This document shows positions 1,553 through 24,547 of a stretch of 44,822 bases of DNA, piece by piece (the first letter of the stretch is position 1; each line of letters begins with the position of its first letter). The translations under genes were made by a program, and so were the position numbers. The DNA is taken from positions 1-44,822 of IMG/VR virus record IMGVR_UViG_3300047444_000903, one strand, 5' to 3'. Source of the DNA: a virus. Below the pieces are notes generated by a model. The model was not told where the DNA came from. It ran no database searches and saw only the letters and a list, made by a program, of their open reading frames with translations.

Positions 1553-1553
1553 C

Positions 1554-2364: not shown

Positions 2365-2377
2365 GTTTCAAGTTATA

Positions 2378-2463: not shown

Positions 2464-2465
2464 AC

Positions 2466-2678: not shown

Positions 2679-2679
2679 C

Positions 2680-2754
2680 GCCCTCTTGGTGCTAATGGTA
2701 GCATGCCTGTTTCGTAATCAGGCGGTCGGAGTTCGATTCTCCGAGGGGGCTCCA
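2680..2754 (+). tRNA. tRNA-Thr (anticodon CGU)
   Basis: Starts one base after the tRNA-Ser CCA. Acceptor GCCCTCT/AGGGGGC (one wobble), D stem GTGC/GCAT, anticodon stem CCTGT/TCAGG with loop TTCGTAA giving CGT at 2713-2715, canonical T arm, discriminator T and encoded CCA. It completes a threonine set with UGU and GGU. Confidence 0.93.
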
Positions 2755-2768
2755 ACATCGTCAACATT

Positions 2769-2841
2769 GGCCGTCAGTCCTGGCTGGGCAAACGTGATTG
2801 CAAACCACGTGGGCAGGGTTCGACTCCCTGGATGGCCTCCA
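2769..2841 (+). tRNA. tRNA-Cys (anticodon GCA)
   Basis: Acceptor GGCCGTC/GATGGCC (one G-U), D stem GTCC/GGGC, anticodon stem CGTGA/CCACG with loop TTGCAAA giving GCA at 2799-2801, T arm CAGGG TTCGACT CCCTG. U73 is the cysteine discriminator and CCA is encoded (2839-2841). Confidence 0.92.
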
Positions 2842-2842
2842 A

Positions 2843-2960
2843 AGTCCGCCCGGCGGGCCAGCAACAGATCCCACTTTCTGTCCTGAAGTAGCCTTGGGAG
2901 GCGAAAAGGAACGGACTGCTGCCACTGGTTCGTGGTTCGACTCCACGACGGCACATCTTA
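2843..2960 (+). other. Non-canonical cloverleaf-like element plus orphan T arm
   Basis: AGTCCG (2843-2848) pairs with CGGACT (2912-2917), enclosing three hairpins: GCCC/GGGC, ACAGA/TCTGT with loop TCCCACTT, and GCCT/AGGC. This is a four-way layout like a tRNA but with no TTCGA loop, and a CCA occurs a few bases after the closing stem. Directly downstream (2931-2947) is a perfect canonical T arm, CGTGG TTCGACT CCACG, for which I find no matching 5' acceptor strand. It may be a chimera of two decayed tRNAs. Confidence 0.35.
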
Positions 2961-2961
2961 C

Positions 2962-3036
2962 GGCGCGTTCGACTACTGGCTAGGTTGTCAGGTTCTCAAC
3001 CTGAAGGAAGGGGATCAAAACCCCTACGCGCTACCA
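2962..3036 (+). tRNA. tRNA-Glu (anticodon CUC)
   Basis: Acceptor GGCGCGT/ACGCGCT (one G-U at the first pair), D stem GACT/GGTT with two wobbles, perfect anticodon stem TCAGG/CCTGA with loop TTCTCAA giving CTC at 2995-2997, T stem AGGGG/CCCCT with loop ATCAAAA. Discriminator A and encoded CCA (3034-3036). It is the last tRNA before the terminator. Confidence 0.88.
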
Positions 3037-6461: not shown

Positions 6462-7400
6462 ATGCCGGTTGCAGTTCTCGGAGGAGCGGGTTTCATCGGG
6501 TCGCACCTGGTCGACGAGCTCCTGGTGCAGGGACACGAGGTCATGGTCCTCGACAACTTCTCGGAAGGGAAGATCGAGAACCTCTACCGTTGGAAAGACG
6601 AGCCCAGACTCGAGGTCGTCCGGGGAGACATCCGGGACTTCGACATGGTTCGGCGGGTGGTGGACCACAAGGACTGGGTGTTCCACCTGGCGGCCATGAG
6701 CCGGATCCAGCCGAGCATCACCGACCCCCTTCTGGCGTTCAGCCAGAACTGCATGGGGTCGGCCAACGTCCTCGAGGCCTGCCGTCAGGGCGGGGTCAAG
6801 CGGGTCGTCTACTCGGCCAGCTCCAGCTGCTACGGTCTGAAGAACAAGCCTCCCCTCAAGGAGACGATGCCTTCCGACTGCCTCAACCCCTACGCCCTGG
6901 GGAAGAAGTTCGGTGAGGACGTTTGTGAGGTCTACACCAAACTCTACGGGCTCTCCACTGTGGCCCTCCGCTACTTCAACGTCTACGGCCCCCGCCACCA
7001 GGAAGAGGGCTCGTACGCCACCGTCATCGCCATCTTCAGGAAGCAGCTGCGGGAAGGCCTGCCGCTGACGGTCGTGGGGACCGGCGAGAAGCGCCGGGAC
7101 TTCACCTTCGTCGGCGACGTGGTCCGGGCCAACATGCTGGCAGCCATGAACCGCAACGCGACCGGTGTGTTCAACATCGGGACCGGCGTGAACTACTCGA
7201 TCAACCAGGTAGCCGACATGGTCGGCGGCGAGAAGACCTACATCCCCGACCGTCCGGCCGAGGCGATGGTCACCCTGGCCGACAACAGCAAGGCCCGGGA
7301 CGTCCTGGGGTGGAAGCCCCAGCTCAGTCTGAAGCAGGGTCTGGAGGTCCTGGACCTCTACGAGAAGCGAAACCAACCCAGCATCATCCTGGCTCGCTGA
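6462..7400 (+). CDS. NAD-dependent nucleotide-sugar epimerase (extended SDR)
   Basis: A 312-residue extended short-chain dehydrogenase of the GalE/HldD/WbpP type. It has GGAGFIG for NAD binding (residues 7-13), DIRDF for adenine contact, SSSCYG with the catalytic Ser, YALGK with the catalytic Tyr/Lys pair (Y144, K148), and RYFNVYGPR. Length is normal. It epimerises or dehydrates a nucleotide sugar. UDP-glucose/galactose 4-epimerase is the nearest guess, but an ADP-heptose epimerase role is possible given the heptose genes downstream. The ATG at 6462 follows AGGAGAA; the open frame extends upstream to 6165, but that part lies inside the preceding gene and looks like noise. Confidence 0.88.
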   Translation: MPVAVLGGAGFIGSHLVDELLVQGHEVMVLDNFSEGKIENLYRWKDEPRLEVVRGDIRDFDMVRRVVDHKDWVFHLAAMSRIQPSITDPLLAFSQNCMGSANVLEACRQGGVKRVVYSASSSCYGLKNKPPLKETMPSDCLNPYALGKKFGEDVCEVYTKLYGLSTVALRYFNVYGPRHQEEGSYATVIAIFRKQLREGLPLTVVGTGEKRRDFTFVGDVVRANMLAAMNRNATGVFNIGTGVNYSINQVADMVGGEKTYIPDRPAEAMVTLADNSKARDVLGWKPQLSLKQGLEVLDLYEKRNQPSIILAR

Positions 7401-7410: not shown

Positions 7411-10400
7411 ATGCTCAAGCTCCTCCTCCGCGCCCCGGTCCTCACGGCCTCGGGCTACGGTGTCCACTCCCGACAGGTACTCAAGGCCCTCCTGGCCTGC
7501 GGGGAGTACGACGTCAGTGTGATGGCCTGCAACTGGGGCAACACCTCGTATATCCTCGACCAGACCCCGTTCTTCGCCAAGATCAAGGACCTCATCGTCA
7601 AGTACGAGATGGAGAAGGCCCAGGGGAACACGCAGTACGACGTGTCCGTCCAGGTCACCATCCCGAACGAGTTCGAGAAGATGGCCCGGGTGAACATCGG
7701 CATCACGGCCGGCATCGAGGTCGACCGCGTCTCCCCGGAGTGGATCAAGAAGATCAACGAGAAGATCGACCTCATCGTCGTCCCCTCGGAGCATTCCAAG
7801 AACACCATGCTCAACGTGGGGTACAACACCCCCGAAGGACAGCTCAGGGTCACCAAGCCCCTGGCGGTCTGCCACGAGGGCGTGGACGTCCGGTACTACA
7901 ACACGGATCCCGTCCCCGAGGACGTCCGGAAGTTCGAGCTCGACGCACCCTTCAACTACCTCTTCGTGGGGCTGGGGCTGGACAAGCCGCTGGGCGAGGA
8001 CCGGAAGAACCTCGGCAACCTCGTCAAGTGGTTCTGCGAGCGCTTCAAGGATGACCCGAATGTGGGTCTGGTCCTGAAGGCGGGCATCGTCAACGGGTCC
8101 CTCATGGACTACGACACGATGGTCCACCGGCTCAAGGAGATCAAGAAGCTGGTCGGATGCGAGAAGTTCCCCCGCATCCAGCTCATCCACGGACGTCTGA
8201 GTGATGCCGAGATGGCGGGCCTGTATAAGCATCCCCAGGTCAAGGCGCTGGTGTCCCTGACCCACGGAGAGGGCTTCGGATTGCCGCTCCTGGAGGCCGC
8301 CGCCTGCGGCCTGCCGGTCGTGGCCACCGCCTGGTCGGGTCACCTGGACTTCCTCCAGATCGACGGACGGAAGAAGTTCGTTCCCCTGGAGTACGAGCTC
8401 AAGGAGATCCCCGAGTCCTGCATCTGGAACGGCGTCATGGAGAAGGGGAGCCAGTGGGCCAACCCCAAGGAAGACGACGTAAAGCTGAAGCTGAAGAAGC
8501 TGACCCTCAGCTACGAGAAGCCGAAGGAGTGGGCGGCCGAACTGGCCAAGCACGTGGCCGAGAACTTCTCCGAGCAGAAGACCGGCTACACGCTCTACCA
8601 GTCCATCGGGGAGTTCCTGAAGCTCCACACCGCCCAGAACCCCCGCTCGGAGGCGGAGGCGGTCGCTCTCCTCAAGAAGCGCTTCTCGGGGGACGGGAAG
8701 AAGACCCTCCTCTACACGATGCCCATGTCGGCCGGGGACGTCTACATCTCCACGGCGGTCGTGAACTCCCTCCGGAAGAAGTTCCCGGAACACAAGATCT
8801 TCTTCGCCACGAACGAGCAGTACGCCTCGATCATCCGGGACAACCCGGACATCGACCAGGGCGTCCAGTTCGAGGGCTGGATGCAGAACGTCCCGCTCTG
8901 CGAGCAGGTCTTCGACGACGTCTTCACACCCAACCTGGCCATCCAGACCACGGCGGCCAACTGGGTCAAGCGTGGCAAGGGACGCCTCCTCGGAAACGAG
9001 ATGGCGCACCTCTGCGACGTGGAGTTCGGAGAGTACCGGATCGCCCTGGACAAGGTCGACGGGCTCCCCGAGGAGTACATCGTCCTCAACCCCGGATCGG
9101 GTAAGGGACAGTGGGAGGCACGGAACTACCTGCACTGGCAGGAGGTCATCAGCAACCTGCGGGCCATGACGGGACTTCCGGTCGTCCAGGTCGGAATGCC
9201 GGACGATCCGGAGTACAAGGACGTCGTCGACTTCCGTGGCAAGACCAGCTACAACCAGCTGGCCTCCGTGGTCAAGGGCGCCAAGCTCCTCCTCAGCATC
9301 GACTCGGTCACGTCCCACCTGGCGGACGGTCTGGACGTTCCACAGGTCTCCCTCTACGGGAGCTCCTACGCCACGTCCACGGGTCCGGTCAACAAGAAGA
9401 AGCTGGCCGTCCTGCTGGACACGCCGGACCGCTATTCCTGCGACCGGGCCTGCTACAAGTACACCTGCTCGGTGGACAAGGACCATCCCTGCGTCAACGA
9501 GATCTCTCCGAAGAAGGTCGTGGAGGAGACTCTTCGCGTCATCGCGATGCACTCCAACTCCTCGGTCATCATGGAGAAGATGACGGACTACAAGGAGTAC
9601 CGCCCGACCATCAGCGGCTACACCCACATCCTGAACCCCAGCAAGCAGGGGTACCCGTGGAAGGAGTCCATCCAGTCCATGCTCGGCTTCTGCGACCAGG
9701 TGGTCGTGGTGGACGGTGGATCCCAGGACGAGACCCTGGAGAAGCTCCAGGCCTGGGCGAAGGAAGAGCCGCGGCTCGAGGTCTCGGTCCGCCCGTGGGA
9801 CTGGGAAGAGCCGGGAATGGACGGACAGCAGAAGGCGTTCGGTCGGGCCCTCTGCACCGGGGACTTCCTCTGGCAGCAGGACTGCGACGAGGTCGTCCAC
9901 GAGGAAGACTACGACAAGGTCAGGGCGCTCGTCAAGCGCTTCCCGAAGGAAGTCAGCCTGGTCCACCTTCCGGTGGTGGAGCTCTGGGGCGACAGCAAGC
10001 ACTGTCGCACGGACCGTCACACCTGGAAGTGGCGCCTCAGCCGGAACGTCTTCAACATCACCCACGGCATCTTCAAGGACGCTCGGGTGGTGGACGAGAA
10101 GACCGGCAAGACCTTCGCCCGGAAGGGCATGTCGGACGGTTGCGAGTACATCGACATGATGAACTACGACTTCGTCCCGCACATCGGCTTCTACGACAAG
10201 GGTATGGAGATGCTCCGTCGTTCCAACCCGGAGGCCTTTGGCGAGAAGATGAACCAGATCTATGGAGAGCTCCCGTCAGTCTACCACTACTCGTGGGCGG
10301 ACATCCCCCGCAAGATCCGGAACTTCCGGGACTTCTGGGACAAGTGCTGGAGCAACCTCTACAACGATCCGGCGCCGCAGCCCCGCTTTCCCGAGGTGAA

Positions 10401-10536
10401 GACCGAGGAAGACGTCCTGAAGAAGGCGGCCGAGATGAAGGCCCAGGGCGGCGAGCACCAGAAGGCGCCGGTCTTCGAGCTGAAGCGTTCAAATCCTGCC
10501 GTGATGAAAGAGTGGATCGCCAGGATGGAAGTGTGA
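7411..10536 (+). CDS. Three-domain glycosyltransferase fusion (GT4-GT9-GT2)
   Basis: A 1041-residue protein with three catalytic domains. Residues 1-405 are a GT4-like GT-B domain with GEGFGLPLLE (E287, E295). Residues 429-713 are a GT9 heptosyltransferase-type domain: LLYTMPMSAGDVYISTAVV, LNPGSGKGQWEARNY (about 558) and SIDSVTSHLADGL (about 629). Residues 728-1041 are a GT2-type GT-A domain with VVVVDGGSQDETLEKL and a DxD-like QQDCDEV (about 821). It probably assembles consecutive linkages of one glycan in the cytoplasm. I see no break or frameshift across 3.1 kb. Its TGA is followed at once by a TATAAT box upstream of the next gene. Such a triple fusion is unusual. Confidence 0.88.
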   Translation: MLKLLLRAPVLTASGYGVHSRQVLKALLACGEYDVSVMACNWGNTSYILDQTPFFAKIKDLIVKYEMEKAQGNTQYDVSVQVTIPNEFEKMARVNIGITAGIEVDRVSPEWIKKINEKIDLIVVPSEHSKNTMLNVGYNTPEGQLRVTKPLAVCHEGVDVRYYNTDPVPEDVRKFELDAPFNYLFVGLGLDKPLGEDRKNLGNLVKWFCERFKDDPNVGLVLKAGIVNGSLMDYDTMVHRLKEIKKLVGCEKFPRIQLIHGRLSDAEMAGLYKHPQVKALVSLTHGEGFGLPLLEAAACGLPVVATAWSGHLDFLQIDGRKKFVPLEYELKEIPESCIWNGVMEKGSQWANPKEDDVKLKLKKLTLSYEKPKEWAAELAKHVAENFSEQKTGYTLYQSIGEFLKLHTAQNPRSEAEAVALLKKRFSGDGKKTLLYTMPMSAGDVYISTAVVNSLRKKFPEHKIFFATNEQYASIIRDNPDIDQGVQFEGWMQNVPLCEQVFDDVFTPNLAIQTTAANWVKRGKGRLLGNEMAHLCDVEFGEYRIALDKVDGLPEEYIVLNPGSGKGQWEARNYLHWQEVISNLRAMTGLPVVQVGMPDDPEYKDVVDFRGKTSYNQLASVVKGAKLLLSIDSVTSHLADGLDVPQVSLYGSSYATSTGPVNKKKLAVLLDTPDRYSCDRACYKYTCSVDKDHPCVNEISPKKVVEETLRVIAMHSNSSVIMEKMTDYKEYRPTISGYTHILNPSKQGYPWKESIQSMLGFCDQVVVVDGGSQDETLEKLQAWAKEEPRLEVSVRPWDWEEPGMDGQQKAFGRALCTGDFLWQQDCDEVVHEEDYDKVRALVKRFPKEVSLVHLPVVELWGDSKHCRTDRHTWKWRLSRNVFNITHGIFKDARVVDEKTGKTFARKGMSDGCEYIDMMNYDFVPHIGFYDKGMEMLRRSNPEAFGEKMNQIYGELPSVYHYSWADIPRKIRNFRDFWDKCWSNLYNDPAPQPRFPEVKTEEDVLKKAAEMKAQGGEHQKAPVFELKRSNPAVMKEWIARMEV

Positions 10537-14151: not shown

Positions 14152-15191
14152 TCCCCAAGCTGCCGCTACCCGAGAACGAACGGAAGACCCTGCTCATCGA
14201 CGCCCGGGAGGGCAGCGACTGGGGACAGGACCTGTTGTTCGCCGGACATGTGCAGCTGCTCGGTCCGGCCAAGGTCATCGACCACCCATACCACTGGAAG
14301 CACCGGTGGGACCTCACCTTCACGGGAGATCCGGAGAAGGACTGGGGACGGGAGCGCGGGATGCTCGGGTTCACCCCCGAGAACAAGCGGGTCTCGATGT
14401 ACTCTGAAGAAGAGCTCCGAGACGAGCTGAGCCGGGGGAACATCAAGCGGATCTTCCTGGACGAACGGGACGAGACCTACGCCCTCTACATGAAGCTTCG
14501 GGCGAACTTCTACGATGTCCCCGTGGTCGTGGTGGCCGGTCACGACAGGTTCTGGAACAGGAGCCCCGAGTTCGTGGCCGCCCGCTACGGCACCAGGCTC
14601 GAGGCCATGTTCCTCGACAACTGGCGTCCGGAGTACGACAGCATCCCCAAGGCCCATGTCTACAACTGGTGCATCAATTTCGACCAGTACTGGACGCCGC
14701 ACCGGACCCAGGAGAAGAAGTACGACATCTCCTTTCAGGGCTACAACAGCCATCCCGATCGGGCCAGGATCATCGATCACGTCCTCTCGAAGTGGGGACA
14801 CCTCCGGCTGAAGATCGATCTGGAACGTGAGCCGAACACGATGCGGGCCTACGTCCGCAAGAACGTGTACTTCGACGTGATGGCCCAGTCCCGGATCTGC
14901 CTCAACCTCAGGGGAGCGGCCGAGAACGGGAAGACCCTGCGGTTCTACGAGATCCCCTACGTCGGCAGCCTGATGCTGACCCAGGACTCCGGCGCCGTCC
15001 AGATCGAACCGTTCCTCGACCGGAGACACTGTCTCTACTTCAAGGACCTGAAGCGGCTGGACGAGCAGATCGAGTTCGCCCTGGAGTCGGAGAAGCGGGC
15101 CCAGTGGATCGCCTGGCAGGGACACTCTCACGCCATGGCTCATCACACCCTTCGGGCTCGCATGCTCCAGATGTACGCGGTGCTCAAGTGA
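14148..15191 (+). CDS. CgeB-like glycosyltransferase
   Basis: A 347-residue protein resembling the CgeB/DUF3880 type of GT-B transferases. The C-terminal half has YDISFQGYNSHPDR, then SRICLNLRGAAENGKTLRFY and PYVGSLMLTQDSGAV, which replace the E-x7-E motif in this group. The N-terminal half is poorly conserved, with HDRFWNRSPEFVAARYG. Soluble. The start overlaps the upstream stop (ATGA) and the stop overlaps the GTG of the next gene. A second member of the group lies at 19358. Confidence 0.75.
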   Translation: MIPKLPLPENERKTLLIDAREGSDWGQDLLFAGHVQLLGPAKVIDHPYHWKHRWDLTFTGDPEKDWGRERGMLGFTPENKRVSMYSEEELRDELSRGNIKRIFLDERDETYALYMKLRANFYDVPVVVVAGHDRFWNRSPEFVAARYGTRLEAMFLDNWRPEYDSIPKAHVYNWCINFDQYWTPHRTQEKKYDISFQGYNSHPDRARIIDHVLSKWGHLRLKIDLEREPNTMRAYVRKNVYFDVMAQSRICLNLRGAAENGKTLRFYEIPYVGSLMLTQDSGAVQIEPFLDRRHCLYFKDLKRLDEQIEFALESEKRAQWIAWQGHSHAMAHHTLRARMLQMYAVLK

Positions 15192-16093
15192 GGACCCTCT
15201 TCGGGAAGGTCTTTGGGCTCGGAAACGCCGTCATGGCGGTCCCGGCCATCAAGGCGCTCCACCACATCGGCTGTGAGCTCGACGTCCTGGTCGGCAGCAC
15301 ACGGGATGACGTCGGCGCCCTGGAAGTGCTGCGGTCCTTGAAGACCCATTACCGCTGCATCAAAAACATCTGGGTGGATCGGGCGCAACCCGTGGAAGAC
15401 CCGATGTACAAGATGGCGATCATGTCGATCCCCTTCGACGGCCGCTGGCACAACGGGACCCACTATCACGCCTTCCAGATGATGGACGGCAGGACCAGAC
15501 CAGATCCCTCCACCACTGGTCTTGTTTCCTGGAAGAAGCACGAGGTCGAGTACCAGATGGAGAACGCCCGGGTCATGGGCTACAACCACGTGACCCCGGA
15601 CTGCTCGTTCATGCCGAAGTGGCTCCCTCCCCCGAACGCCAAGTTCAGGATCTACCTCGGGGTCGGGTACAAGAAGGACGCCGCCGGATTCTGGAAGGTG
15701 AAGCACTGGGGGAATGAGAACTACGCTGAGCTCTGCAAGCGGATCCTGGCGGAGATTCCAGACTGCGAGATCGTGACCACGGGTGACATGGCCGACATCC
15801 AGCTTTCCATCATGCCGATCATGAAGATGGTGGACGACCTCCGTCTCCAGCTCATCCCGACGAACCTGATCCATTCTCTAGAGGTCGTGAACTCCTGTCA
15901 CATGTACGTCGGGAATGACACCGGCATGATGCACGTGGCGGCAGCCCAAGACAAGAAGGTCGTGGGGATCTTCAAGATGTGGAACTCCTCCGTCAAGGCA
16001 CATCCCTGGTGTCAGGAGTATCGGGTCGTAGAGGGCATAGATACCCCCATCACGGTGGAGGAAGTATTTACCAAGATCAAGGAGCTGCTGTGA
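15188..16093 (+). CDS. GT9 heptosyltransferase-like protein
   Basis: A 301-residue protein of the ADP-heptose:LPS heptosyltransferase family. RTLFGKVFGLGNAVMAVPAIKAL is the typical N-terminal glycine loop. IYLGVGYKKDAAGFWKVKHW corresponds to the donor-phosphate segment. YVGNDTGMMHVAAA (D244, H249) is the signature of the C-terminal domain. The GTG start at 15188 overlaps the TGA of the previous gene. Together with the GT9 domain in the fusion protein, the module has two heptosyltransferase-type units, fitting the heptose-making genes downstream. Confidence 0.82.
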   Translation: MRTLFGKVFGLGNAVMAVPAIKALHHIGCELDVLVGSTRDDVGALEVLRSLKTHYRCIKNIWVDRAQPVEDPMYKMAIMSIPFDGRWHNGTHYHAFQMMDGRTRPDPSTTGLVSWKKHEVEYQMENARVMGYNHVTPDCSFMPKWLPPPNAKFRIYLGVGYKKDAAGFWKVKHWGNENYAELCKRILAEIPDCEIVTTGDMADIQLSIMPIMKMVDDLRLQLIPTNLIHSLEVVNSCHMYVGNDTGMMHVAAAQDKKVVGIFKMWNSSVKAHPWCQEYRVVEGIDTPITVEEVFTKIKELL

Positions 16094-16734
16094 CTACCTC
16101 TGTGTTCGTAGCGGCCCTCGTCAGCGGGCTGCGCAGGATGGCCAAGATGAATGACGTGATCCGGGACACCCACGGGAACCTCTCCGTGCTGGCTCCCGGT
16201 GGAGTCGTCTGCATCAAGCCGAGCGGCATGCCGTACGAGCAGATCCAGGTCGAAGACGTCGTCTGCGTGGCGATCTCAGACGGCGAGATCCTGATGGGCA
16301 AGCGGAAGCCCTCCGTGGACCTTCCCCATCACCTGGCGATCTATCGGAAATATCCTCACGTCCACTCCATCTGCCACACCCACTCGCCCTACGCCGTCGG
16401 CTACGCCATCTCGGGTAGGGACCTCGAGGTCAGGTGCACGGAGCATGCCGACTACTTCGGTCACGACATCCGGACGACCGGAAGGCCGGACATCGACCGG
16501 TGGGGAGACGAGCTGCTCTTGGATCCGGATGAGAAGGCGGTGCTGCTCTACCAGCACGGTGTCCTGACCTTCGGCGACACTCCAAACAAGGCTGTGGAGC
16601 TGGCGGCCGCCTTGGAGAACATCGCTCAGAAGAACTACATCGCCCACACCCTCAACGGTGGCAACTGTCGCCTGATGCACGGCGAAGATGTCAAGGCCTG
16701 GCACAAAAGGTACAACACGACCTATGGACAGTAA
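16090..16734 (+). CDS. Class II aldolase/epimerase (AraD/FucA-like)
   Basis: A 214-residue zinc enzyme of the class II aldolase/adducin family. It has KPSGMPYEQIQVEDVV (substrate phosphate loop), HTHSP with two zinc ligands (H96, H98) and YQHGVL with the third (H156). Members include L-ribulose-5-phosphate 4-epimerase and L-fuculose-phosphate aldolase, which cut or invert sugar phosphates. Length is normal. The GTG at 16090 overlaps the upstream TGA, and the stop lies inside the RpiB gene. It probably supplies a sugar-phosphate precursor, but the exact substrate cannot be read. Confidence 0.85.
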   Translation: MTTSVFVAALVSGLRRMAKMNDVIRDTHGNLSVLAPGGVVCIKPSGMPYEQIQVEDVVCVAISDGEILMGKRKPSVDLPHHLAIYRKYPHVHSICHTHSPYAVGYAISGRDLEVRCTEHADYFGHDIRTTGRPDIDRWGDELLLDPDEKAVLLYQHGVLTFGDTPNKAVELAAALENIAQKNYIAHTLNGGNCRLMHGEDVKAWHKRYNTTYGQ

Positions 16735-17173
16735 CACCATCTACCTCGGTTCAGACCACAACGGGAACGCGGCCCGGGGCTACATCATGAAGCTCCTGCT
16801 GGCCGCTGGCTACTGCGTGTGCGACGTCAACGGGGACGACTACGAGCACAAGGTCGACTACACGGACATCGCCGAGAAGCTGTGCAAGGGCGTCATGAAG
16901 GACGACGCCACCGGCATCCTGATCTGCGGTACGGGGACGGGCATGCTGATCGCCGCCAACCGGTTCCGTTCCATCCGCGCCGGCCTGGCGACGGATCGCG
17001 CCACGGCCGAGCTCATGCGCCAGCACAACGACTGCAATGTCCTCGTCCTCGGCCAGTGGCGCACTCCCCTGGGTTCCATGGACGAGCTCATCCACACCTT
17101 CCTGGAGACCGCCTTCGAGGAAGGCCGTCACATCGCCAGGGTGGAGAAGCTGGGGTACCTCGGTGACGAATAA
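16724..17173 (+). CDS. rpiB: Ribose-5-phosphate isomerase B-like (RpiB/LacA)
   Basis: A 149-residue sugar-phosphate isomerase. The family motifs are all present: YLGSDHNGNAARGYI at the N-terminus, ILICGTGTGMLIAANRF (anion-binding loop with the catalytic Cys) and IRAGLATDRATAELMRQHND. RpiB interconverts ribulose and ribose 5-phosphates, and relatives act on allose or galactose phosphates. The start overlaps the aldolase by 11 bases, and the GTG of the next kinase lies before its stop. With transaldolase two genes later, this forms a small pentose-phosphate block. Confidence 0.9.
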   Translation: MDSNTIYLGSDHNGNAARGYIMKLLLAAGYCVCDVNGDDYEHKVDYTDIAEKLCKGVMKDDATGILICGTGTGMLIAANRFRSIRAGLATDRATAELMRQHNDCNVLVLGQWRTPLGSMDELIHTFLETAFEEGRHIARVEKLGYLGDE

Positions 17174-18083
17174 GAACATCCTGGTGGTCGGGGACGTGAT
17201 CCTCGACGAGTACACCCACGGAAAGAAGCTCGGTGTCTCCGCTGAGACTCCGACCATCGTGGCCGACTACGAGCGAACGGAACGCTTCATCGGAGGTGCG
17301 GCCCTCGTCGTCAGACATCTCCTCAGGTTGGGTGCCAACGTCCGGCTCCTGACTGTCGGCGGCGACGAGAGCCTCTGGACCCGGCTGGTGGAGTCCACTG
17401 ACGCCCCCACCCAGGACGAGCTCAACCGGCTCGACTACAGCCCGATCGTGGGCAAGGGATGGAAGTGGACGGAGAAGCGTCGGTTCTACGTCGACGACTA
17501 CAAGATGGTGCAGTACGACGTTCGGAACGAGGCGTACTACTCCCAGGACCTGAAGCAGATCATGGCCGACGCCTATGTCCAGGCCCGCAACGTGGCTGAC
17601 GCCGTGGTGGTCTGCGACAACCGCCACGGGACGATGGACTACAGCCTGATGGACCTCATCCGGCAGAAGAAGGAACGCTACGGCGGGAAGCTCTTCGTGG
17701 ACAGCCAGGTCTCCCAGAAGGAAAGCAACCACAGCAACTACGCCGGCGCCGACATGATGTTCCTGAACCTCAAGGAGCTGGAGGCCGTGGTCGGTCGTCC
17801 CCGTGAGGTGGACTGCATCGTGGACCGTGTCCAACGGGCCAAGGAACGCCTCCACTCTGGGATCACCCTGAAGCTGGGACACCACGGTTCGGCCACCATG
17901 TTCAAGGACTCGGACGAGTACCACGAGTCGGAAGCATACGATGTCCGGGCCGTGGACACCTGCGGGGCCGGGGACGCTTTCCTGGCCGCCTACGCCGTGT
18001 CGGAAGACCTCGACTTCGCCAACAGGTGGGCCGGCCTGAGCACTACTTATAAGGGGACGATCGTTCCCAAGGAGCGCCCATGA
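17163..18083 (+). CDS. PfkB-family sugar kinase, HldE-kinase-like (copy 1)
   Basis: A 306-residue ribokinase-fold kinase. NILVVGDVILDEYTHG and GGAALVVRHLLRLGANV match the N-terminal domain of HldE (D-glycero-beta-D-manno-heptose-7-phosphate 1-kinase). MFLNLKELEAVVG and DTCGAGDAFLAAYA with catalytic base D271 complete the active site. The GTG at 17163 starts inside the RpiB gene. A second kinase of the same type lies at 23621, so the two may act on different sugar phosphates. The last codons overlap the start of the transaldolase. Confidence 0.83.
   Translation: MTNKNILVVGDVILDEYTHGKKLGVSAETPTIVADYERTERFIGGAALVVRHLLRLGANVRLLTVGGDESLWTRLVESTDAPTQDELNRLDYSPIVGKGWKWTEKRRFYVDDYKMVQYDVRNEAYYSQDLKQIMADAYVQARNVADAVVVCDNRHGTMDYSLMDLIRQKKERYGGKLFVDSQVSQKESNHSNYAGADMMFLNLKELEAVVGRPREVDCIVDRVQRAKERLHSGITLKLGHHGSATMFKDSDEYHESEAYDVRAVDTCGAGDAFLAAYAVSEDLDFANRWAGLSTTYKGTIVPKERP
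18047..18053 (+). promoter_or_regulatory. Candidate late promoter element CTTATAAG
   Basis: ACTTATAAGG near the end of the kinase gene, 26 bases upstream of the transaldolase ATG. It matches the element at 3338-3345 over CTTATAAG and the TTATAAG at 35295. Given the gp55-like sigma factor, it may be this phage's late promoter. It lies in coding DNA, so chance cannot be excluded. Confidence 0.3.
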
Positions 18084-18793
18084 AAGAGCTCTTCCTCGAC
18101 AGCGCGAACCTGGACGACATCTCCCTCGCGGTCCGGACGGACGCCGTGGCCGGTGTGACGACCAACCCGTCACTCATGGCCAAGGAGACCAAGGTCGTCT
18201 CGCTGGAACCTCGCTTCTCGAAGGAGAAGTGGGACCACTACGTCAAGCGACTGGACGACGTCTGCCAGGTCTTCCAGACTCGTGCGCGGGCCAGGAAGCA
18301 CCTCTCGGTCGAGGTCATCACCCTCGATCCCCAGGAGATGTACGATCAGGCGCACCGTCTTCGGGACGCCCTCGGGAAGTACGACAAGGTGCAGCTGCAC
18401 GTCAAGATCCCGATCCTCTTCGAGTCACTCGAGGTGATCTCGAGACTTGGCGACGACGGGGTCAAGGTGAACGCCACCGCGGCCATGACAGCCCTTCAGG
18501 CGAAGCTGGCCCACGATGCCGGCGCTCCCATCGTCTCGTTCTTCTACAATCGGATGAAGGACGGGGATCTGGACGCCGACATGGAGCTGAGCCTGTTCGC
18601 CAACGATCTGAACCGAAACTGCCGTATCATCTGTGGCAGCATCCGGAAGCCGGAAGACCTGCAGGACTGCTGGCTGAACGGGGCGGACATCGTGACGGCT
18701 TCCCTGTCGATCATCAAGCAGGTGATCGCCCATCCCCAGACGGACAAGGCGGTCAAGCAATTCCAGGAGGACATCGACTCATGGCTGAAGTAA
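18080..18793 (+). CDS. Transaldolase-like (TalC/FSA type)
   Basis: A 237-residue TIM-barrel aldolase. ELFLDSANLDDI (catalytic Asp), GVTTNPSLMAKE, HLSVEVI and LHVKIPI with the Schiff-base lysine (K109) are family hallmarks. It is slightly longer than the usual 214-220-residue TalC/F6P aldolase. Transaldolase makes sedoheptulose 7-phosphate from fructose 6-phosphate and erythrose 4-phosphate, the precursor of activated heptoses. Phage transaldolases are known from cyanophages. Here it sits between a heptose-type kinase and a cupin, which suggests sugar synthesis. The start overlaps the upstream stop (ATGA). Confidence 0.88.
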   Translation: MKELFLDSANLDDISLAVRTDAVAGVTTNPSLMAKETKVVSLEPRFSKEKWDHYVKRLDDVCQVFQTRARARKHLSVEVITLDPQEMYDQAHRLRDALGKYDKVQLHVKIPILFESLEVISRLGDDGVKVNATAAMTALQAKLAHDAGAPIVSFFYNRMKDGDLDADMELSLFANDLNRNCRIICGSIRKPEDLQDCWLNGADIVTASLSIIKQVIAHPQTDKAVKQFQEDIDSWLK

Positions 18794-19152
18794 AGAAGAG
18801 GACCGCGTCCGACATCAAGCGCGTCGAGCGCGGGTGGGGCTACGAGCTCTGGATCGAGAACGAGCCGGAGTACTGTGGCAAGCTCCTCCACATCTACAAG
18901 GACAAGTGCTGCAGCCTGCACTTCCACATGAACAAGATGGAGACGATGTACTTGCAGAAGGGACACGTCCGTCTGAAACTGATTGACCCGGAGAAGGGGG
19001 CGCCGTACTACGTCGACCTCCTGCCGGGTGAGTCCATCCTCATCGACCGTGGTCTGGTCCACCAGATCGGCGCCATCGAGGAGTCGGACCTGTTCGAGTT
19101 CAGCACCATGCACGAAGAATCCGACTCATACCGAGTCGAAAAGGGGAACTGA
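18781..19152 (+). CDS. Cupin, sugar-phosphate isomerase-like
   Basis: A 123-residue single cupin barrel. CSLHFHMNKMETMYLQKGHV carries the metal ligands of cupin motif 1 (H-x-H and Glu), and the GESILIDRGLVHQIGA segment carries the motif-2 His. It resembles the mannose-6-phosphate isomerase type II domain and other nucleotide-sugar-pathway cupins. It may isomerise or bind a sugar phosphate. The ATG at 18781 overlaps the transaldolase stop. Confidence 0.75.
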   Translation: MAEVKKRTASDIKRVERGWGYELWIENEPEYCGKLLHIYKDKCCSLHFHMNKMETMYLQKGHVRLKLIDPEKGAPYYVDLLPGESILIDRGLVHQIGAIEESDLFEFSTMHEESDSYRVEKGN

Positions 19153-19153
19153 A

Positions 19154-19357
19154 ATGATCAAGAACAAGAAGGGCGAGAAGTGCTCTCCCAAGGATCTGGC
19201 GAAGGAAGTCCTGGTCGACGCTGTCCTCAACATCGGCTCCGTCGAGGGTGACGAGGGTCGGACCGAGAAGGAAGACGCGCTGATCGATGAGCAGTTCAAG
19301 AAGCTTAGCCAGCGCGTCCTCAAGGTCCTCGGCTACGTGAGCACCCAGGACGAGTAG
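19154..19357 (+). CDS. Small hypothetical protein (67 aa)
   Basis: Unrecognised, highly charged 67-residue protein. MIKNKKGEKCSPKDLAKEV is followed by an acidic middle (GSVEGDEGRTEKEDALIDEQ) and a helical end. No membrane segment. The ATG at 19154 lies one base after the cupin stop, with AAGGGGA upstream as ribosome site. Its stop abuts the next ATG. The close packing suggests a real gene, possibly a small regulator or subunit of the sugar enzymes. Confidence 0.65.
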   Translation: MIKNKKGEKCSPKDLAKEVLVDAVLNIGSVEGDEGRTEKEDALIDEQFKKLSQRVLKVLGYVSTQDE

Positions 19358-20248
19358 ATGCGTATCAACCTCGTCGGAGCATTCATCAGGAACGCCCCGT
19401 TCGGGACGGAGATCGCCTTCAAGAAAGGCTTCGACCGTCTCGGCGAGCACCTGGTGAATGTCATCGACGACAGCCAGCCCGGTCAGGTCTGGGACTACGA
19501 CGCCGACGCCACGGTGGTCTTCAAGACCATGCAGGGCTACTGGCATGACCTGGCCATCACCAAGGGCAAGAAGATCGTCTACCAGCCCGACGATCTTCGC
19601 TTCCCGCACATCAAGCAGATGATGCTGGACATGCGGAAGTACTGTGACTTCGCCTTCACGTTCGACGAAGACGGCGCCCAGCTGGCCCGGGAGTACGGGT
19701 ACAAGAAGGCGGAGCGTTTGCTCCTGACGGCAGATGACACGCTCTACCGCCCGCTCCCTCAGGTAGAGAAGGACATCGACGTCTGCTTCATTGGAAGCCT
19801 GACACCAGGTGCCAACCACAAGAGCCGGGTCAGGATGTGCCAGATCGTCAACAACATGCCGGGAGTGCACACCTTCTTCCACGGTGCGATCTACGACATC
19901 GAGCAACTGAACCTGATGTACAACCGCTCGAAGATCATCCTGAACCACGCGACCGACGTGGGGCAGGAGTTCGGTTTCGGCTACGGCTACCAGTGCCGAC
20001 ACTTCGAGGCGGGCATGACACGCTCCTGCGTCCTGTCGAACGTCGTTTCAAACGAGACTGCTCGAGACGGGATCAAGAGCTTCTGGTTCTTCTCCAGCGA
20101 GCAGGACCTCCAGGACCAGGTCCGCTACCTGCTCGCCGACCCGGGCCACCGTCAGCAGCTGGCCCATGACCTCTACGGTGAGATGATGGCCGGCCACAAG
20201 CCGGAGCATCGCGCCCAGCAGATGGTCGATTTCATCAGGAGCCTGTGA
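19358..20248 (+). CDS. CgeB-like glycosyltransferase (second copy)
   Basis: A 296-residue GT-B-like protein. After an N-terminal Rossmann half (RINLVGAFIRNAPFGTEIAF) it has KKIVYQPDDLRFPH, DVCFIGSLTPGANHKSRV and a C-terminal segment in which SKIILNHATDVGQEFGFGYG and CRHFEAGMTRSCVLSN match the CgeB-type donor site. Related to but clearly diverged from the gene at 14148. It begins directly after the preceding stop. The sugar is unknown. Confidence 0.78.
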   Translation: MRINLVGAFIRNAPFGTEIAFKKGFDRLGEHLVNVIDDSQPGQVWDYDADATVVFKTMQGYWHDLAITKGKKIVYQPDDLRFPHIKQMMLDMRKYCDFAFTFDEDGAQLAREYGYKKAERLLLTADDTLYRPLPQVEKDIDVCFIGSLTPGANHKSRVRMCQIVNNMPGVHTFFHGAIYDIEQLNLMYNRSKIILNHATDVGQEFGFGYGYQCRHFEAGMTRSCVLSNVVSNETARDGIKSFWFFSSEQDLQDQVRYLLADPGHRQQLAHDLYGEMMAGHKPEHRAQQMVDFIRSL

Positions 20249-20850
20249 TGAAGCTCAATCTCGGATGCGGGTCGGACCTCCGGCCCGGATATCTCAATGT
20301 TGACTTCCTGGGTCCGAAGTGGATCCCGGCCGACGTCGGGTTCCTGCTGACGGACCTGTCCAAGCTGCCTTGGCCGTGGGAGGATGAGTCGGCCGAGGAG
20401 ATCCTCATGTTGGACTTCCTCGAACACTTCCCGTACAAGCAGACGGAGAAGATCCTGCAGGAAGTCTGGCGAGTCCTGCTTCCCGGCGGGACGGTGGACA
20501 TCCAGGTGCCGGACTTCCAACACTGCGCCTACGCCGTGCTGGACGACGACGGTCTGGACTACCAGTGCAACCGGTGTGGCAACTGGATGCTGGGGTCGGA
20601 CGGCCATGGGTGCTCGAAGTGTGGCCAGAGCATCGCAGACATCCAGGACGCCGCCATCCATAGGCTCTATGGGGGGCAGGACGTCCAAGGGAACTGGCAC
20701 TACACCGCCTTCACCGAGGAGGTGTTGGGCAGGCTCCTGGAGAAGAACGGTTTCGCCAACATCCACGCCCTGGAACACGATCACCAGCAGGCGAACTGGA
20801 ACATCAAGCTCAGAGCCACCAAGGCTGAACTGACCTGGGGTGACCAGTGA
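20248..20850 (+). CDS. SAM methyltransferase with inserted zinc ribbon
   Basis: A 200-residue class I methyltransferase-like protein. KLNLGCGSDLRPGYLNVD is a classic motif I and acidic loop, LMLDFLEHFPYKQ is motif post-I/II, and EVWRVLLPGGTVDIQVPDF is the motif III strand. Between that strand and the C-terminal helix is an insert with two CxxC pairs (C107/C110 and C122/C125), a likely zinc ribbon. The GTG at 20245 could also start it; I chose the ATG at 20248, whose A is shared with the upstream TGA. It is probably a sugar or lipid-linked intermediate methyltransferase. Confidence 0.8.
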   Translation: MKLNLGCGSDLRPGYLNVDFLGPKWIPADVGFLLTDLSKLPWPWEDESAEEILMLDFLEHFPYKQTEKILQEVWRVLLPGGTVDIQVPDFQHCAYAVLDDDGLDYQCNRCGNWMLGSDGHGCSKCGQSIADIQDAAIHRLYGGQDVQGNWHYTAFTEEVLGRLLEKNGFANIHALEHDHQQANWNIKLRATKAELTWGDQ

Positions 20851-21872
20851 AGATCGCGTTCGTCGGGGTCAAGCGGGACTACCAGAAGCTCGGAGCTGGC
20901 TACGTCCGCATGTTCAACAAGTACCACCTGGAGATCCCGTTCTACTACGCGGAGCTTGGTGGGAACGACGTCACGGTCACGACCACGAACTACATCGGAG
21001 CCTCCGAGGAGTTTCTGTCTGGCGGCAAGTTCCGCAACGACGCCGAGCTGAGCTACATGGGCGGCCACGACCATCACCGCTACGACGTGGTGGTACACTG
21101 GCGGAAGTTCTTTCCGGAGCTCTACCACAAGGACGCCATCAATGTCCTCCACACCTGTGACCACACCTACCCAGAAGACTGGAAGCGGGACGTCCGGGCG
21201 GCTCTCTCTTCGGGGAAGCTGAAGAAGATCATCTGCTACAAGGGCTGGCACGCGAACCAGGTCGGTGTAGAGCTCGGTCTGGACCCTTCCCAGTGCCTGA
21301 ACCTGATCGAAACGGAGCTAACCTTCGGCGTGGACCCGGAGATCTACCATCCGTCGCCCTCCAAGGACCCCCACGCCATGCTCTGGAGCTCGGATCCGGG
21401 CCGCGGGCTGATCGGGGCGGTGCAATTGGCCGTGAAACTGCACGCCAGGGACCGTCGGTTCAAGCTTCACGTCTGCCATCCGGACTACACCAACATGTCC
21501 CCGATCGTCCATCCGTCGATCGTCTGGCACGGAAACGTGAGCAACGGACCGGAACTCTGGAAGCTTTTCAATGAGACGGGCATCCTGCCGTACTCGTCGA
21601 CCTTCCAAGAGCCGAGTTCACGAGCCGCTCGCCAGGCGCAGGCCGCCGGCAGCCTGGTCCTCTATCCACCGGGCATGGGCACCCCCTCAGAGTACGTCAG
21701 AGACATGGAGACGGGCGTCATGCGGCCTGTCAACCAATGGATCGACAAGATAGTAGAGCTGGTCGGCACCCCGGCGGCTTCTCAGATCTGTAGGAACGCG
21801 GTGGACCAGGCGGTTTCGGAAAGCTGGCAGGTCCAAGCGGAAAGATTCAATCAAAGGTTCAAGGGAGAGTAG
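20847..21872 (+). CDS. Glycosyltransferase, GT4-like (divergent)
   Basis: A 341-residue GT-B-like enzyme. KIAFVGVKRDYQKLGAGYV is the first strand and loop, VLHTCDHTYPEDWK the acceptor side, GVDPEIYHPSPSKDP the domain linker, and FQEPSSRAARQAQAAGSLVL the place of the E-x7-E motif (EP...Q, so the second Glu is replaced). The GTG at 20847 overlaps the upstream stop by four bases. Related proteins occur in other phage and capsule clusters. The donor is unknown. Confidence 0.75.
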   Translation: MKIAFVGVKRDYQKLGAGYVRMFNKYHLEIPFYYAELGGNDVTVTTTNYIGASEEFLSGGKFRNDAELSYMGGHDHHRYDVVVHWRKFFPELYHKDAINVLHTCDHTYPEDWKRDVRAALSSGKLKKIICYKGWHANQVGVELGLDPSQCLNLIETELTFGVDPEIYHPSPSKDPHAMLWSSDPGRGLIGAVQLAVKLHARDRRFKLHVCHPDYTNMSPIVHPSIVWHGNVSNGPELWKLFNETGILPYSSTFQEPSSRAARQAQAAGSLVLYPPGMGTPSEYVRDMETGVMRPVNQWIDKIVELVGTPAASQICRNAVDQAVSESWQVQAERFNQRFKGE

Positions 21873-21874
21873 GC

Positions 21875-22822
21875 ATGAGCATTGACATCAACGCTACCGA
21901 TTTCGTAGCCAAGTTCGATTCCACCAAGGGAACGGTCGGAGTGGTTGGCTATGGGTACGTCGGGCGCGCCGTCGAGCAGTTCTTCCGCTGGAAGACGGAC
22001 GAGAAGGGGAACCCCGCGCAGCTCTTCGACGTCAAGGTCTTCGACAAGGCCAAGCCCGAGATGGACACCCTGGCCGACGTGGTCGGGAAGGCGGAGATCA
22101 TCTTCGTCTGCGTGCCCACCCCGATGCGCAAGGACGGCTCCTGCCACACGGGCATCGTGGAGTCGGTGCTCAAGGACATCTTGAACGAGGCAGAGCGTCA
22201 GGGAAGAAGCCCGAGCTCATTCGTCGTCGTCGTCAAGAGCACGGTCTATCCGGGCTTCACCGACGAGATGCGGAAGAAGATGCCGATCAGGCTGCTCTTC
22301 TCTCCCGAGTTCCTCACGGAGAAGAACTCGGTGGCCGACTTCGAGAACACGAACCGCGTCCTCCTGGGTGGTGACACGGAGGACGGGCGCGTCGCCTTCA
22401 AGTTCTTCGAGGCTCGGCTCTACGAGAAGATCCTCATGAACCAGGTCGTCATCGTCGGCTGCGAGTCGAAGGAAGCCGAGATGGCGAAGCTCTTCACCAA
22501 CGGCATCCTGATGACGAAGGTCCTCTTCTGCAACGAGATGTACCAGCTCTGCCAGAAGATGGGCATCGACTACGAGGAGGTCCGCACCCTGGCGACGCTG
22601 GACTTCCGGATCGGGGTGAGTCACACCTACGTCCCCGGTCACGACGGTTCTCTGGGCGCGGGAGGCCATTGCTTCCCGAAGGACATCAACAACCTCCGGA
22701 ACGTCTGCCGTCAGCAGGGCGTTCCCGAGAAGCTCTTCACCGCCGTGATCGACCGGAACAACGAGATCCGGGAGGACCACGACTGGGAGAAGATGAAGGA
22801 TCGTGCGGTCATCGATGAATGA
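21875..22822 (+). CDS. UDP-glucose/GDP-mannose dehydrogenase, short form
   Basis: A 315-residue nucleotide-sugar 6-dehydrogenase. GVVGYGYVGRAVEQF is the NAD-binding loop, VCVPTPMRKDGSC and KSTVYPGFTDEM are family signatures, EFLTEKNSVADFENTNRVLLG is the sugar-contact segment, and GGHCFPKDINNL carries the catalytic Cys (C266). It oxidises a UDP- or GDP-sugar to the uronate. The usual proteins have 390-450 residues with a C-terminal nucleotide-binding domain that is missing here. The stop is clean, so this is a short form rather than a frameshift, and activity is uncertain. Confidence 0.85.
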   Translation: MSIDINATDFVAKFDSTKGTVGVVGYGYVGRAVEQFFRWKTDEKGNPAQLFDVKVFDKAKPEMDTLADVVGKAEIIFVCVPTPMRKDGSCHTGIVESVLKDILNEAERQGRSPSSFVVVVKSTVYPGFTDEMRKKMPIRLLFSPEFLTEKNSVADFENTNRVLLGGDTEDGRVAFKFFEARLYEKILMNQVVIVGCESKEAEMAKLFTNGILMTKVLFCNEMYQLCQKMGIDYEEVRTLATLDFRIGVSHTYVPGHDGSLGAGGHCFPKDINNLRNVCRQQGVPEKLFTAVIDRNNEIREDHDWEKMKDRAVIDE

Positions 22823-23162
22823 TCCCTTTCACGACCGACGTCTGGTGATGGACCTCGACGGCACCCTCTGCGAACAGACCGCAGGGGGTGACGCCTATTG
22901 GACCGCCCAGCCGAAGAAGGACGTCATCGCCCGGGTCAACCGCTGCTATGACGAGGGGTGGCACGTCACCATTCACACGGCTCGTGGAATGCGAACCCAC
23001 AACGGTGACGTGAAGAAGATCATCGAGCTCTACGAAGAAAAGACTCGGGACTGGCTGATCGACAACGGAGTGTGGTTCCACGAGCTGATCTTCGGGAAGC
23101 CCCCGGGTGACAGGTACGTCGACGACAGGAGTCTGAGGCCGGATGAATTCGCAGGCGTCTGA
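22815..23162 (+). CDS. HAD-superfamily phosphatase-like
   Basis: A 115-residue minimal HAD protein. VMDLDGTLCE (nucleophile D13 and acid D15), THTARG-like IHTARGMRTHNGD (motif II Thr) and YVDDRSLRP (motif IV Asp pair) are present, with no cap domain. Similar short proteins occur in capsule clusters. It could dephosphorylate a sugar phosphate and take the GmhB step in heptose synthesis, but the zinc Cys residues of true GmhB are not seen. The ATG at 22815 overlaps the dehydrogenase end by eight bases, and its stop lies inside the next gene. Confidence 0.78.
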   Translation: MNDPFHDRRLVMDLDGTLCEQTAGGDAYWTAQPKKDVIARVNRCYDEGWHVTIHTARGMRTHNGDVKKIIELYEEKTRDWLIDNGVWFHELIFGKPPGDRYVDDRSLRPDEFAGV

Positions 23163-23634
23163 GACATACGAACGGTTCGCCCGGTCCATCAGGGAGGCCG
23201 GGCTGTACCTGTTTCCCGAGACGGGGTACGATCGAATCGTCTTCACCAACGGCTGCTTCGACCTCCTCCACCGTGGGCACCTCGACGTCCTGAACTACGC
23301 CAGGAGCGTGGCGGGAGCCCGGGGAACCGTGGTGGTAGGTCTGAACTCCGACGAGGGGATCAAGCGCCTGAAGGGACAGGACCGCCCGATCCAGGATGAG
23401 CACACCCGCGCCCTCCTGCTCATCCATCTCAGGATGGTCGACCACGTCATTACGTTCGAGGAAGACACACCCTACGAGCTCATCAGAGCGCTGCAGCCGC
23501 ATGTGATCGTCAAGGGTGGAGACTATGATCCCAAGACGGTGGTAGGCTCTGATCTCGCCCTGGTCGTGACCTGTCCGTTCCTGGACGGCAACTCGACCTC
23601 CAACATCGTGGAGAAGATCCGTGGAATCTCCTGA
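23143..23634 (+). CDS. Heptose-1-phosphate nucleotidyltransferase (HldE C-domain-like)
   Basis: A 163-residue cytidylyltransferase-fold enzyme. VFTNGCFDLLHRGHL carries the HxGH motif (H43, H46). VVGLNSDEGIKRLKG, then RALLLIHLRMVDHVITFEEDTP, VIVKGGDY and GNSTSNIVEKIR match the C-terminal half of HldE (RfaE2), which makes ADP-heptose from heptose 1-phosphate and ATP. It stands alone here, directly before its kinase partner (14-base overlap), the reverse of the order in fused E. coli HldE. It is the strongest single marker for heptose activation in the module. Confidence 0.9.
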   Translation: MNSQASETYERFARSIREAGLYLFPETGYDRIVFTNGCFDLLHRGHLDVLNYARSVAGARGTVVVGLNSDEGIKRLKGQDRPIQDEHTRALLLIHLRMVDHVITFEEDTPYELIRALQPHVIVKGGDYDPKTVVGSDLALVVTCPFLDGNSTSNIVEKIRGIS

Positions 23635-24547
23635 CAAGGTCTACAAGGTTCTCGTGGTCGGGGACATCATGCTCGACCAGTACACGTACGTCAAGACGGT
23701 GCGACAGGCCGAGGAGGCCAAGATCCCCGTCTGGGATGAGCTGCGCCAGGAGTACCGTCTCGGTGGGGCGGCCAACGTGGCTCACAACCTGAAGGCGCTC
23801 GGAGGAGCGGAAGTGGAAGTGCACCTCGCCGGCATCTGCGGATCGTTGGTGGTCATCCATCGTCTGCGCGAGCTTGGGATCAAGCACGACCGGATGCTTG
23901 GGCATGAGACGATGGTCAAGCGTCGGTTCGTGGACGAGAACAACAACTTCGTCATGCGTCTCGACAACTTCAGGAAGTTCGACCAGCCCGAGGTAGAGTT
24001 CTTCGAGATGATGATGGACTACTGGGAGCAGAGCTTCGACTGCGTCATCTTCTCCGACTACGACAAGGGGACCATCACCCCGAAGGTCATGGAGGTTTTC
24101 AGGAAGCTGGCGCCCATGACGATCGTGGACTCCAAGCGAGAGGACCTCCGGATCTTCGACGGGATCAACATCCTGAAGGTGAACGAGAAGGAGTACTCCT
24201 CCCAGGTCTCCAGCAAGCTCTACACCAACTTCACCGAGTTCTTCCAGTACGTGGTGGTCACCCGCGGTAGTGAGGGTGCGACCCTCATCATGTGTGACCA
24301 CGCCAAGACGGTGAAGGCGGACCTGGCCCCTGGTAGGATCATCGGGGATTCCTACGTGAATCACTCCGAGGAGTTCCCAGTGATTCAAGCGATGGTCAAG
24401 GATGTGACCGGCTGTGGGGACACCCACACGGCCGCCATGGCCTTCTGTGCGCTGAAGACTCGGGACGTCCGATCGGCAGTGAAGTTTGCGAACTCGGCAG
24501 CAGCGCAGGTGGTCCAAAAGTTTGGTACATCTGTCGCCTACCTGTGA
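23621..24547 (+). CDS. PfkB-family heptose kinase, HldE N-domain-like (copy 2)
   Basis: A 308-residue kinase close to HldE/RfaE1. KVLVVGDIMLDQYTYV, RLGGAANVAHNLKALGGAEV, IFSDYDKGTITP (the Y-x-KG segment typical of RfaE1), VVVTRGSEGATL and DVTGCGDTHTAAMA with catalytic D267. It phosphorylates heptose 7-phosphate at C1. The GTG at 23621 lies inside the adenylyltransferase gene, so the two are probably coupled. Its TGA is followed at once by TATAAT, closing the sugar module. Confidence 0.88.
   Translation: MESPDKVYKVLVVGDIMLDQYTYVKTVRQAEEAKIPVWDELRQEYRLGGAANVAHNLKALGGAEVEVHLAGICGSLVVIHRLRELGIKHDRMLGHETMVKRRFVDENNNFVMRLDNFRKFDQPEVEFFEMMMDYWEQSFDCVIFSDYDKGTITPKVMEVFRKLAPMTIVDSKREDLRIFDGINILKVNEKEYSSQVSSKLYTNFTEFFQYVVVTRGSEGATLIMCDHAKTVKADLAPGRIIGDSYVNHSEEFPVIQAMVKDVTGCGDTHTAAMAFCALKTRDVRSAVKFANSAAAQVVQKFGTSVAYL

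Follow-up and report, generated by a model that had tools for sequence, protein, structure and literature searches.

A candidate phage cassette for an ADP-heptose-type sugar in which a cupin may stand in for GmhA

How a phage might make an activated heptose without GmhA, the isomerase of the bacterial ADP-heptose pathway, is the question raised by the 44.8-kb IMG/VR virus record IMGVR_UViG_3300047444_000903, whose 44,822 nt are referred to here as the window. Positions 15188-24547 hold a tight run of open reading frames (ORFs) in the same direction, many of them overlapping by a few bases, and the overlap of most frames looks as it would in one transcription unit. A preliminary description of this DNA proposed that the phage makes its own nucleotide-heptose, with a candidate for every ADP-heptose step but GmhA. 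Profile searches against Pfam and NCBIfam found each gene it named to be an intact ORF at its position with a significant family match (Table 1). On balance, we lean towards reading the run as a phage-encoded cassette of ADP-heptose type that would work without GmhA.

The linkage of genes across phage loci defines the core of this cassette. Homologues of the window adenylyltransferase in IMG/VR (80 hits, 78 loci) were combined with six annotated phage loci; the 84 loci were dereplicated at 90% adenylyltransferase identity to 53, in which genes were counted by profile searches built from window proteins. This sample and the reverse one, started from the cupin, are best-hit and non-random, and many of the contigs are fragmentary. 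The kinase accompanies the adenylyltransferase in 50 of the 53 loci, the cupin in 45, a short-chain dehydrogenase/reductase (SDR), HldD-like in many loci, in 41, the HAD phosphatase in 27 and a UDP-glucose/GDP-mannose dehydrogenase-like (UGDH-like) gene in nine; AraD and RpiB were counted in three loci each and transaldolase in two. Eight loci are devoid of cupin: six of them break off near the adenylyltransferase to one side, whereas L023 and Streptomyces phage Jay2Jay also lack the kinase. In the reverse scan, the adenylyltransferase was encountered in 48 of 65 dereplicated cupin loci, mostly less than 2 kb away.

That no GmhA was seen in the window was borne out and extends to all sampled phages with the core, where the cupin is present instead. 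Searches with PF13580 (SIS_2) gave no match in the window or its near-identical contigs and uncovered GmhA in none of 50 adenylyltransferase contigs, 50 cupin contigs and five cyanophage genomes; the same search does find the GmhA of Caulobacter phage Cr30. The cupin, for its part, is absent from the whole records of Cr30 and of the GmhA-bearing huge phages. When viral contigs were scanned with GmhA from E. coli and from Cr30, most of the matches were host-like contigs or Cr30 itself. One phage collection record, AGRM01000002.1, is a 691-kb Salmonella chromosome contig that yields host RfaE and DiaA matches. Bacterial genomes provide no test of exclusivity between cupin and GmhA, since those bearing the cupin often encode SIS_2 proteins elsewhere. 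Two other candidates for GmhA were rejected: RpiB is a chemically possible substitute found in only three of 53 loci against 45 for the cupin, and the cyanophage gene called 'phosphoheptose isomerase' is the HAD phosphatase, in the five genomes without SIS_2 mentioned above.

Because of its linkage to the core, the lack of GmhA in phages with the cupin or the adenylyltransferase and its own absence from phages with GmhA, the cupin is the strongest candidate to isomerize sedoheptulose 7-phosphate. Among 41 cupin homologues, 18 residues are invariant, including the metal set H47, H49, E54 and H94 and the polar residues E22, K34, K52, E106 and R118; searched singly, 39 of the 41 match Lyx_isomer and 21 match MannoseP_isomer. 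The structure model (pLDDT 94.3) matches oxalate decarboxylase first, followed by the Thermococcus phosphomannose isomerase 7ZVY, of a length near that of the cupin (TM 0.71/0.79), and by D-lyxose isomerases. The fold alone leaves the reaction undecided, as oxalate decarboxylase ranks above the sugar isomerases. Phosphomannose isomerase and D-lyxose/D-mannose isomerase convert a ketose into an aldose with the manno-type configuration at C2, and GmhA makes the same C2 change on sedoheptulose 7-phosphate; this shared chemistry would favour an isomerase role for the cupin. We found no paper linking a cupin to GmhA function in the open-licence literature.

The enzymes that would act after the isomerase are not all those previously proposed. 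The HldE-type adenylyltransferase was correctly named: TIGR02199 is its best family, with a score below the equivalog cut-off, and its best solved relative, 5X9Q, is deposited as a putative cytidylyltransferase. Of the two HldE-type kinases announced, only the one at 23621 (kinase 2) stood. Its sole solved relative by sequence is the D-beta-D-heptose 7-phosphate kinase 4E84, and alignment to that structure shows the KxR, RxD, SDYxKG and VDxK motifs retained. The kinase at 17163 (kinase 1) also matches 4E84, but CDNRHG replaces SDYxKG and VDSQ replaces VDxK, so that the idea of two heptose kinases was abandoned; a scan with this protein returned near-identical contigs only. The HAD phosphatase, formerly taken as a GmhB candidate, is of the EcbF-BcbF/AfhF type: it matches TIGR01689 (EcbF-BcbF), and no GmhB model figures among its matches. 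Residues D13, D15, T55, K95, D103 and D104, the full HAD catalytic set, are invariant. Its nearest solved structures are 1XPJ, of EcbF-BcbF type, and 9IQW, entitled phage HY126 D-arabinose 1,5-diphosphate phosphatase AfhF, which is the top fold match by E-value (30% identity by fold alignment); by sequence, 1XPJ is the better match. A GmhB-type phosphatase occurs in 10 of the 53 adenylyltransferase loci, all 10 without the HAD; the two families substitute for one another among phages. The SDR at 6462, proposed as HldD, was likewise rejected on score: GalE-like, it falls under the cut-off of both families (274.6 bits for HldD).

Thus the claim that all steps except GmhA have a candidate held for the kinase and the adenylyltransferase and failed for GmhB and HldD in the window itself. 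Both are found with the core in relatives. Locus L017 carries in order a fused HldE, an HldD-like SDR, the cupin and GmhB, and L012 a fused HldE, the cupin, the HAD and an HldD-like SDR, the SDRs of both scoring far higher as HldD than as GalE. In L005 and L011, HldD exceeds its curated cut-off, with 301.5 and 313.9 bits. Fused HldE, HldD-like SDR, cupin and GmhB are also consecutive on L151 and L152, phage-like contigs filed under a Neomarinimicrobiota metagenome-assembled genome (MAG); they were rejected as a bacterial cluster, their flanks resembling phage genes. In locus L088, of Synechococcus phage S-SM2, the HldE-type adenylyltransferase has as neighbours a pair of HAD paralogues, a 'dN-sugar pyrophosphorylase' and an aldolase of class II; this single phage possibly has two sugar-nucleotide routes.

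Between the GT9 gene and the cupin, the window carries an AraD-RpiB-kinase 1-transaldolase block. The same order is found in the distant relative L010, with 38-72% identity. In the close relative L003, the cupin directly follows GT9 and the block is absent, and in L005 and L011 HldD stands between the GT9 homologue and the cupin. As it is missing from the first and its slot is filled by HldD in the other two, the block is, from gene order, an exchangeable accessory module outside the core. The aldolase retains the PSxD, HTHS and HADYF motifs, its best solved relative being L-ribulose-5-P 4-epimerase 1JDI. The best solved relatives of the TalC-type transaldolase are themselves transaldolases, and Glu and Phe occupy the aligned positions that distinguish transaldolases from fructose-6-phosphate aldolases; if active, it could be a source of sedoheptulose 7-phosphate. 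The block probably serves sugar-phosphate supply or a variant sugar; most simply, it would provide sedoheptulose 7-phosphate.

The family assignments rest on sequence comparison, and from them we infer the following reactions. Sedoheptulose 7-phosphate would come from the host or be increased by the phage transaldolase. In GmhA's place, the cupin would isomerize it to D-glycero-D-manno-heptose 7-phosphate; kinase 2 would add the 1-phosphate, the HAD would remove the 7-phosphate and the adenylyltransferase would form ADP-heptose. The GT9 enzymes and other glycosyltransferases of the operon might then transfer heptose to a glycan, on the host surface or the virion. Phage-made nucleotide-heptose is in this way retained from the preliminary description as the best-supported reading, by virtue of the HldE-type adenylyltransferase and kinase and of HldD and GmhB in relatives, with its details on the SDR, the HAD and kinase 1 set aside. 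More tentatively, and somewhat short of probable, the cupin would belong to a new class of isomerases for sedoheptulose 7-phosphate, not homologous to GmhA, by which many phages make ADP-heptose without that enzyme, while an exchangeable AraD-RpiB-kinase-transaldolase module in the HldD slot feeds or alters the sugar.

Several observations weigh against an ADP-heptose cassette of this kind. The adenylyltransferase and both kinases score under the NCBIfam equivalog cut-offs, and one HAD relative is deposited as an arabinose-bisphosphate phosphatase. No HldD was found in contigs of the window phage, the near-identical contigs G003 and G005 offering nothing better than the window's 136-bit SDR; since the available sequence has no HldD, the final sugar of this phage is the least certain part. 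Seventeen of the 65 cupin loci have no visible adenylyltransferase. The fold matches of the cupin to oxalate decarboxylase and quercetinase have better E-values than those to sugar isomerases, its homologues in Deltaproteobacteria/Binataceae MAGs often adjoin an SDR, and in L094 a homologue adjoins GDP-mannose 4,6-dehydratase, a neighbourhood that a phosphomannose-type isomerase would fit as well. GmhA, finally, may come from the host. This last point founds a distinct explanation, in which host GmhA, usual in Gram-negative hosts, supplies heptose 7-phosphate and the cupin acts elsewhere, for instance in remodelling a later sugar intermediate. Cupins do comprise both sugar epimerases and ketoisomerases, and some homologues are solitary or adjoin a GDP-mannose dehydratase. 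However, the cupin is tied to the kinase and the adenylyltransferase far more tightly than are the HAD or the glycosyltransferases, and cupin and GmhA were never found together in one phage; we consider this explanation unlikely.

The main rival concerns the sugar itself. The cassette could make activated D-arabinose, an NDP-arabinose with which DNA or glycans would be modified: RpiB would yield ribulose 5-phosphate, the cupin arabinose 5-phosphate and kinase 2 the 1-phosphate; once the HAD had taken off the 5-phosphate, the adenylyltransferase would act. The AfhF match of the HAD and the presence of RpiB and an AraD-type enzyme in the accessory block agree with this route, and in the RB69-type phage phiR1-RT the same kind of HAD adjoins an ORF052c homologue and a gene annotated as arabinose 5-phosphate isomerase (PMC6024577). 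Yet RB69-type cassettes rely on an isomerase of SIS type and, in place of HldE domains, on another NTP-transferase protein, the HAD is closer to 1XPJ than to AfhF in sequence, and most relatives that keep the core do without the accessory block. Regarding an SIS arabinose 5-phosphate isomerase, the window has no SIS_2 match, KdsD/PF01380-type SIS not having been searched for. Heptose is favoured over arabinose because the adenylyltransferase and kinase are of HldE type and HldD or GmhB joins the core in relatives; the arabinose route appears quite improbable.

The glycan region is mosaic. Compared with L003, the window is 100% identical over about 29.0-30.7 kb and mostly 60-93% identical across the sugar region; over 9700-30700, a baseplate gene is identical for about 1.7 kb, the sugar cassette differs by 7-40% and two gene blocks were gained or lost. 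These differences point to recombination in the glycan region. The ratio of non-synonymous to synonymous substitution rates (dN/dS) in this comparison is 0.09-0.18 for cupin, HAD, UGDH, adenylyltransferase and kinase 2 and about 0.5 for two glycosyltransferases. The enzymes are conserved and glycan assembly diversifies, the pattern expected where selection on a surface or virion glycan keeps changing. Such variability among otherwise very similar phages could evoke decaying host cargo filling the phage head, the 'stuffer DNA' considered possible for cyanophages (PMC3037559), but with all ORFs intact, active-site residues retained, this low dN/dS and a core recurring across dozens of divergent phages, that explanation is hardly credible.

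Other features complete the picture of the element. The UGDH-like gene adjoins HAD, adenylyltransferase and kinase and is conserved within the window lineage; its 315-aa product retains a GGHCFPKD motif, and Pfam reports the N-terminal and central domains and no C-terminal one. Both GT9 domains noticed earlier, in the 7411-10536 fusion and at 15188-16093, were matched by PF01075. Identical or near-identical cassettes are carried, over the shared stretch, by three more contigs (L002, L004, L006); the gene set is no product of chance. Thirteen tRNA genes, four of them for proline, cluster at 659-3036. The best known relatives of the baseplate wedge protein belong to a Microcystis phage, an uncultured phage and Flavobacterium phages (34-36% identity), and Megablast of the window against phage records gave no match.

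Table 1. Sugar-related genes of the window and the matches on which their assignment is based
Feature	Position	Strand	Basis
Extended SDR epimerase/dehydratase, GalE-like	6462..7400	+	TIGR01179 galE 170 vs TIGR02197 HldD 136 bits
GT4-GT9-GT2 triple fusion glycosyltransferase, 1041 aa	7411..10536	+	PF00534, PF01075, PF00535
GT9 (heptosyltransferase family) glycosyltransferase	15188..16093	+	PF01075 9e-14
AraD-type class II aldolase/4-epimerase	16090..16734	+	PF00596 4e-37
RpiB sugar-phosphate isomerase	16724..17173	+	PF02502 5e-40; PRK05571 139.8 bits (cut-off 135, exceeded)
PfkB kinase 1, remote HldE-kinase relative	17163..18083	+	TIGR02198 126 bits; accessory block
Transaldolase, TalC type	18080..18793	+	PF00923 4e-34
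Cupin, proposed ketose-aldose isomerase in GmhA's stead	18781..19152	+	Metal ligands; linkage; model
UDP-glucose/GDP-mannose dehydrogenase-like (UGDH)	21875..22822	+	PF03721, PF00984
HAD phosphatase, EcbF-BcbF/AfhF type, proposed sugar-1,n-bisphosphate phosphatase	22815..23162	+	TIGR01689 67 bits
HldE-type sugar-1-phosphate adenylyltransferase	23143..23634	+	TIGR02199 154.6 bits; cut-off 181.5
HldE-type PfkB kinase 2	23621..24547	+	TIGR02198 167.7 bits; cut-off 345

Public labels of the HAD and the cupin look wrong. The label 'phosphoheptose isomerase' (PHROG 1238), borne by many records of T4-like phages and cyanophages, falls on the HAD phosphatase, and 'cysteine dioxygenase' (PHROG 7851) falls on the cupin; the errors concern window positions 22815-23162 and 18781-19152 as well as NC_006883, NC_048049, NC_031906, NC_015279 and NC_028955. 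Through these two labels, automatic annotation invents a phage GmhA and conceals the likely isomerase.

Phage heptose and lipopolysaccharide (LPS) cassettes are already known, and cyanophages sharing the core have been published since 2010. T4-GC 304, 305, 307 and 308 were reported among seven co-occurring LPS genes in three cyanophages, the authors leaving open whether such genes function or are filler (Sullivan et al. 2010; PMC3037559). In another study (PMC7824862), cyanophage gene clusters were described that encode HIGH nucleotidyltransferases and PfkB kinases together with epimerases and sugar isomerases of cupin fold; heptose genes including a 'phosphoheptose isomerase' were named in SynMITS9220M01 (PMC7378029), and rfaE and UDP-glucose dehydrogenase were found in pelagimyophages (PMC7029224). 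The first three of these studies run counter to the earlier remark that so complete a set was not known to be described for phages. What this comparison adds is that GmhA is systematically absent, that the cupin is assigned as the candidate isomerase, that swapped labels are corrected and that the accessory block is exchangeable. A stepwise pathway with a named isomerase candidate makes the question left by Sullivan et al. (2010) testable, and phage-made heptose could change receptors, superinfection exclusion or virion glycans.

Among the closest known systems is the cyanophage cassette (P-SSM2, S-SM2, S-CAM3, P-TIM68), in which T4-GC 304-308 correspond to nucleotidyltransferase, kinase, HAD, cupin and epimerase. 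Both systems cluster an HldE-type nucleotidyltransferase, a PfkB kinase, a small HAD and a cupin with glycosyltransferases, and the nucleotide-sugar epimerase of the cyanophages has a remote relative in the window's SDR; BLAST places homologues of T4-GC 304, 305, 306 and 307 inside a 6-kb stretch of the window, at 23-53% identity for the cassette proteins. The window differs by its phage lineage, by the addition of the AraD-RpiB-kinase 1-transaldolase block and the UGDH-like gene and by the lack of an HldD-like epimerase, its GalE-like SDR lying 16 kb from the adenylyltransferase with 24-27% identity to T4-GC 308. With the bacterial ADP-heptose pathway (GmhA, HldE, GmhB, HldD) it shares the HldE-family kinase and adenylyltransferase and the GT9 glycosyltransferases, whereas GmhA is lacking, the EcbF/AfhF-type HAD stands for GmhB and the GalE-like SDR for HldD. 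The RB69/HY126 arabinose cassette (SIS arabinose-5-P isomerase, ORF053_52c, AfhF-type HAD) has the HAD family in common and follows the same isomerase-kinase-phosphatase-nucleotidyltransferase logic, but its isomerase and nucleotidyltransferase belong to other families than the cupin and the HldE-type enzyme. In Caulobacter phage Cr30, genes for heptose likewise adjoin those for an epimerase and a glycosyltransferase, but the phage uses a true GmhA and an HddA-like kinase and has no cupin.

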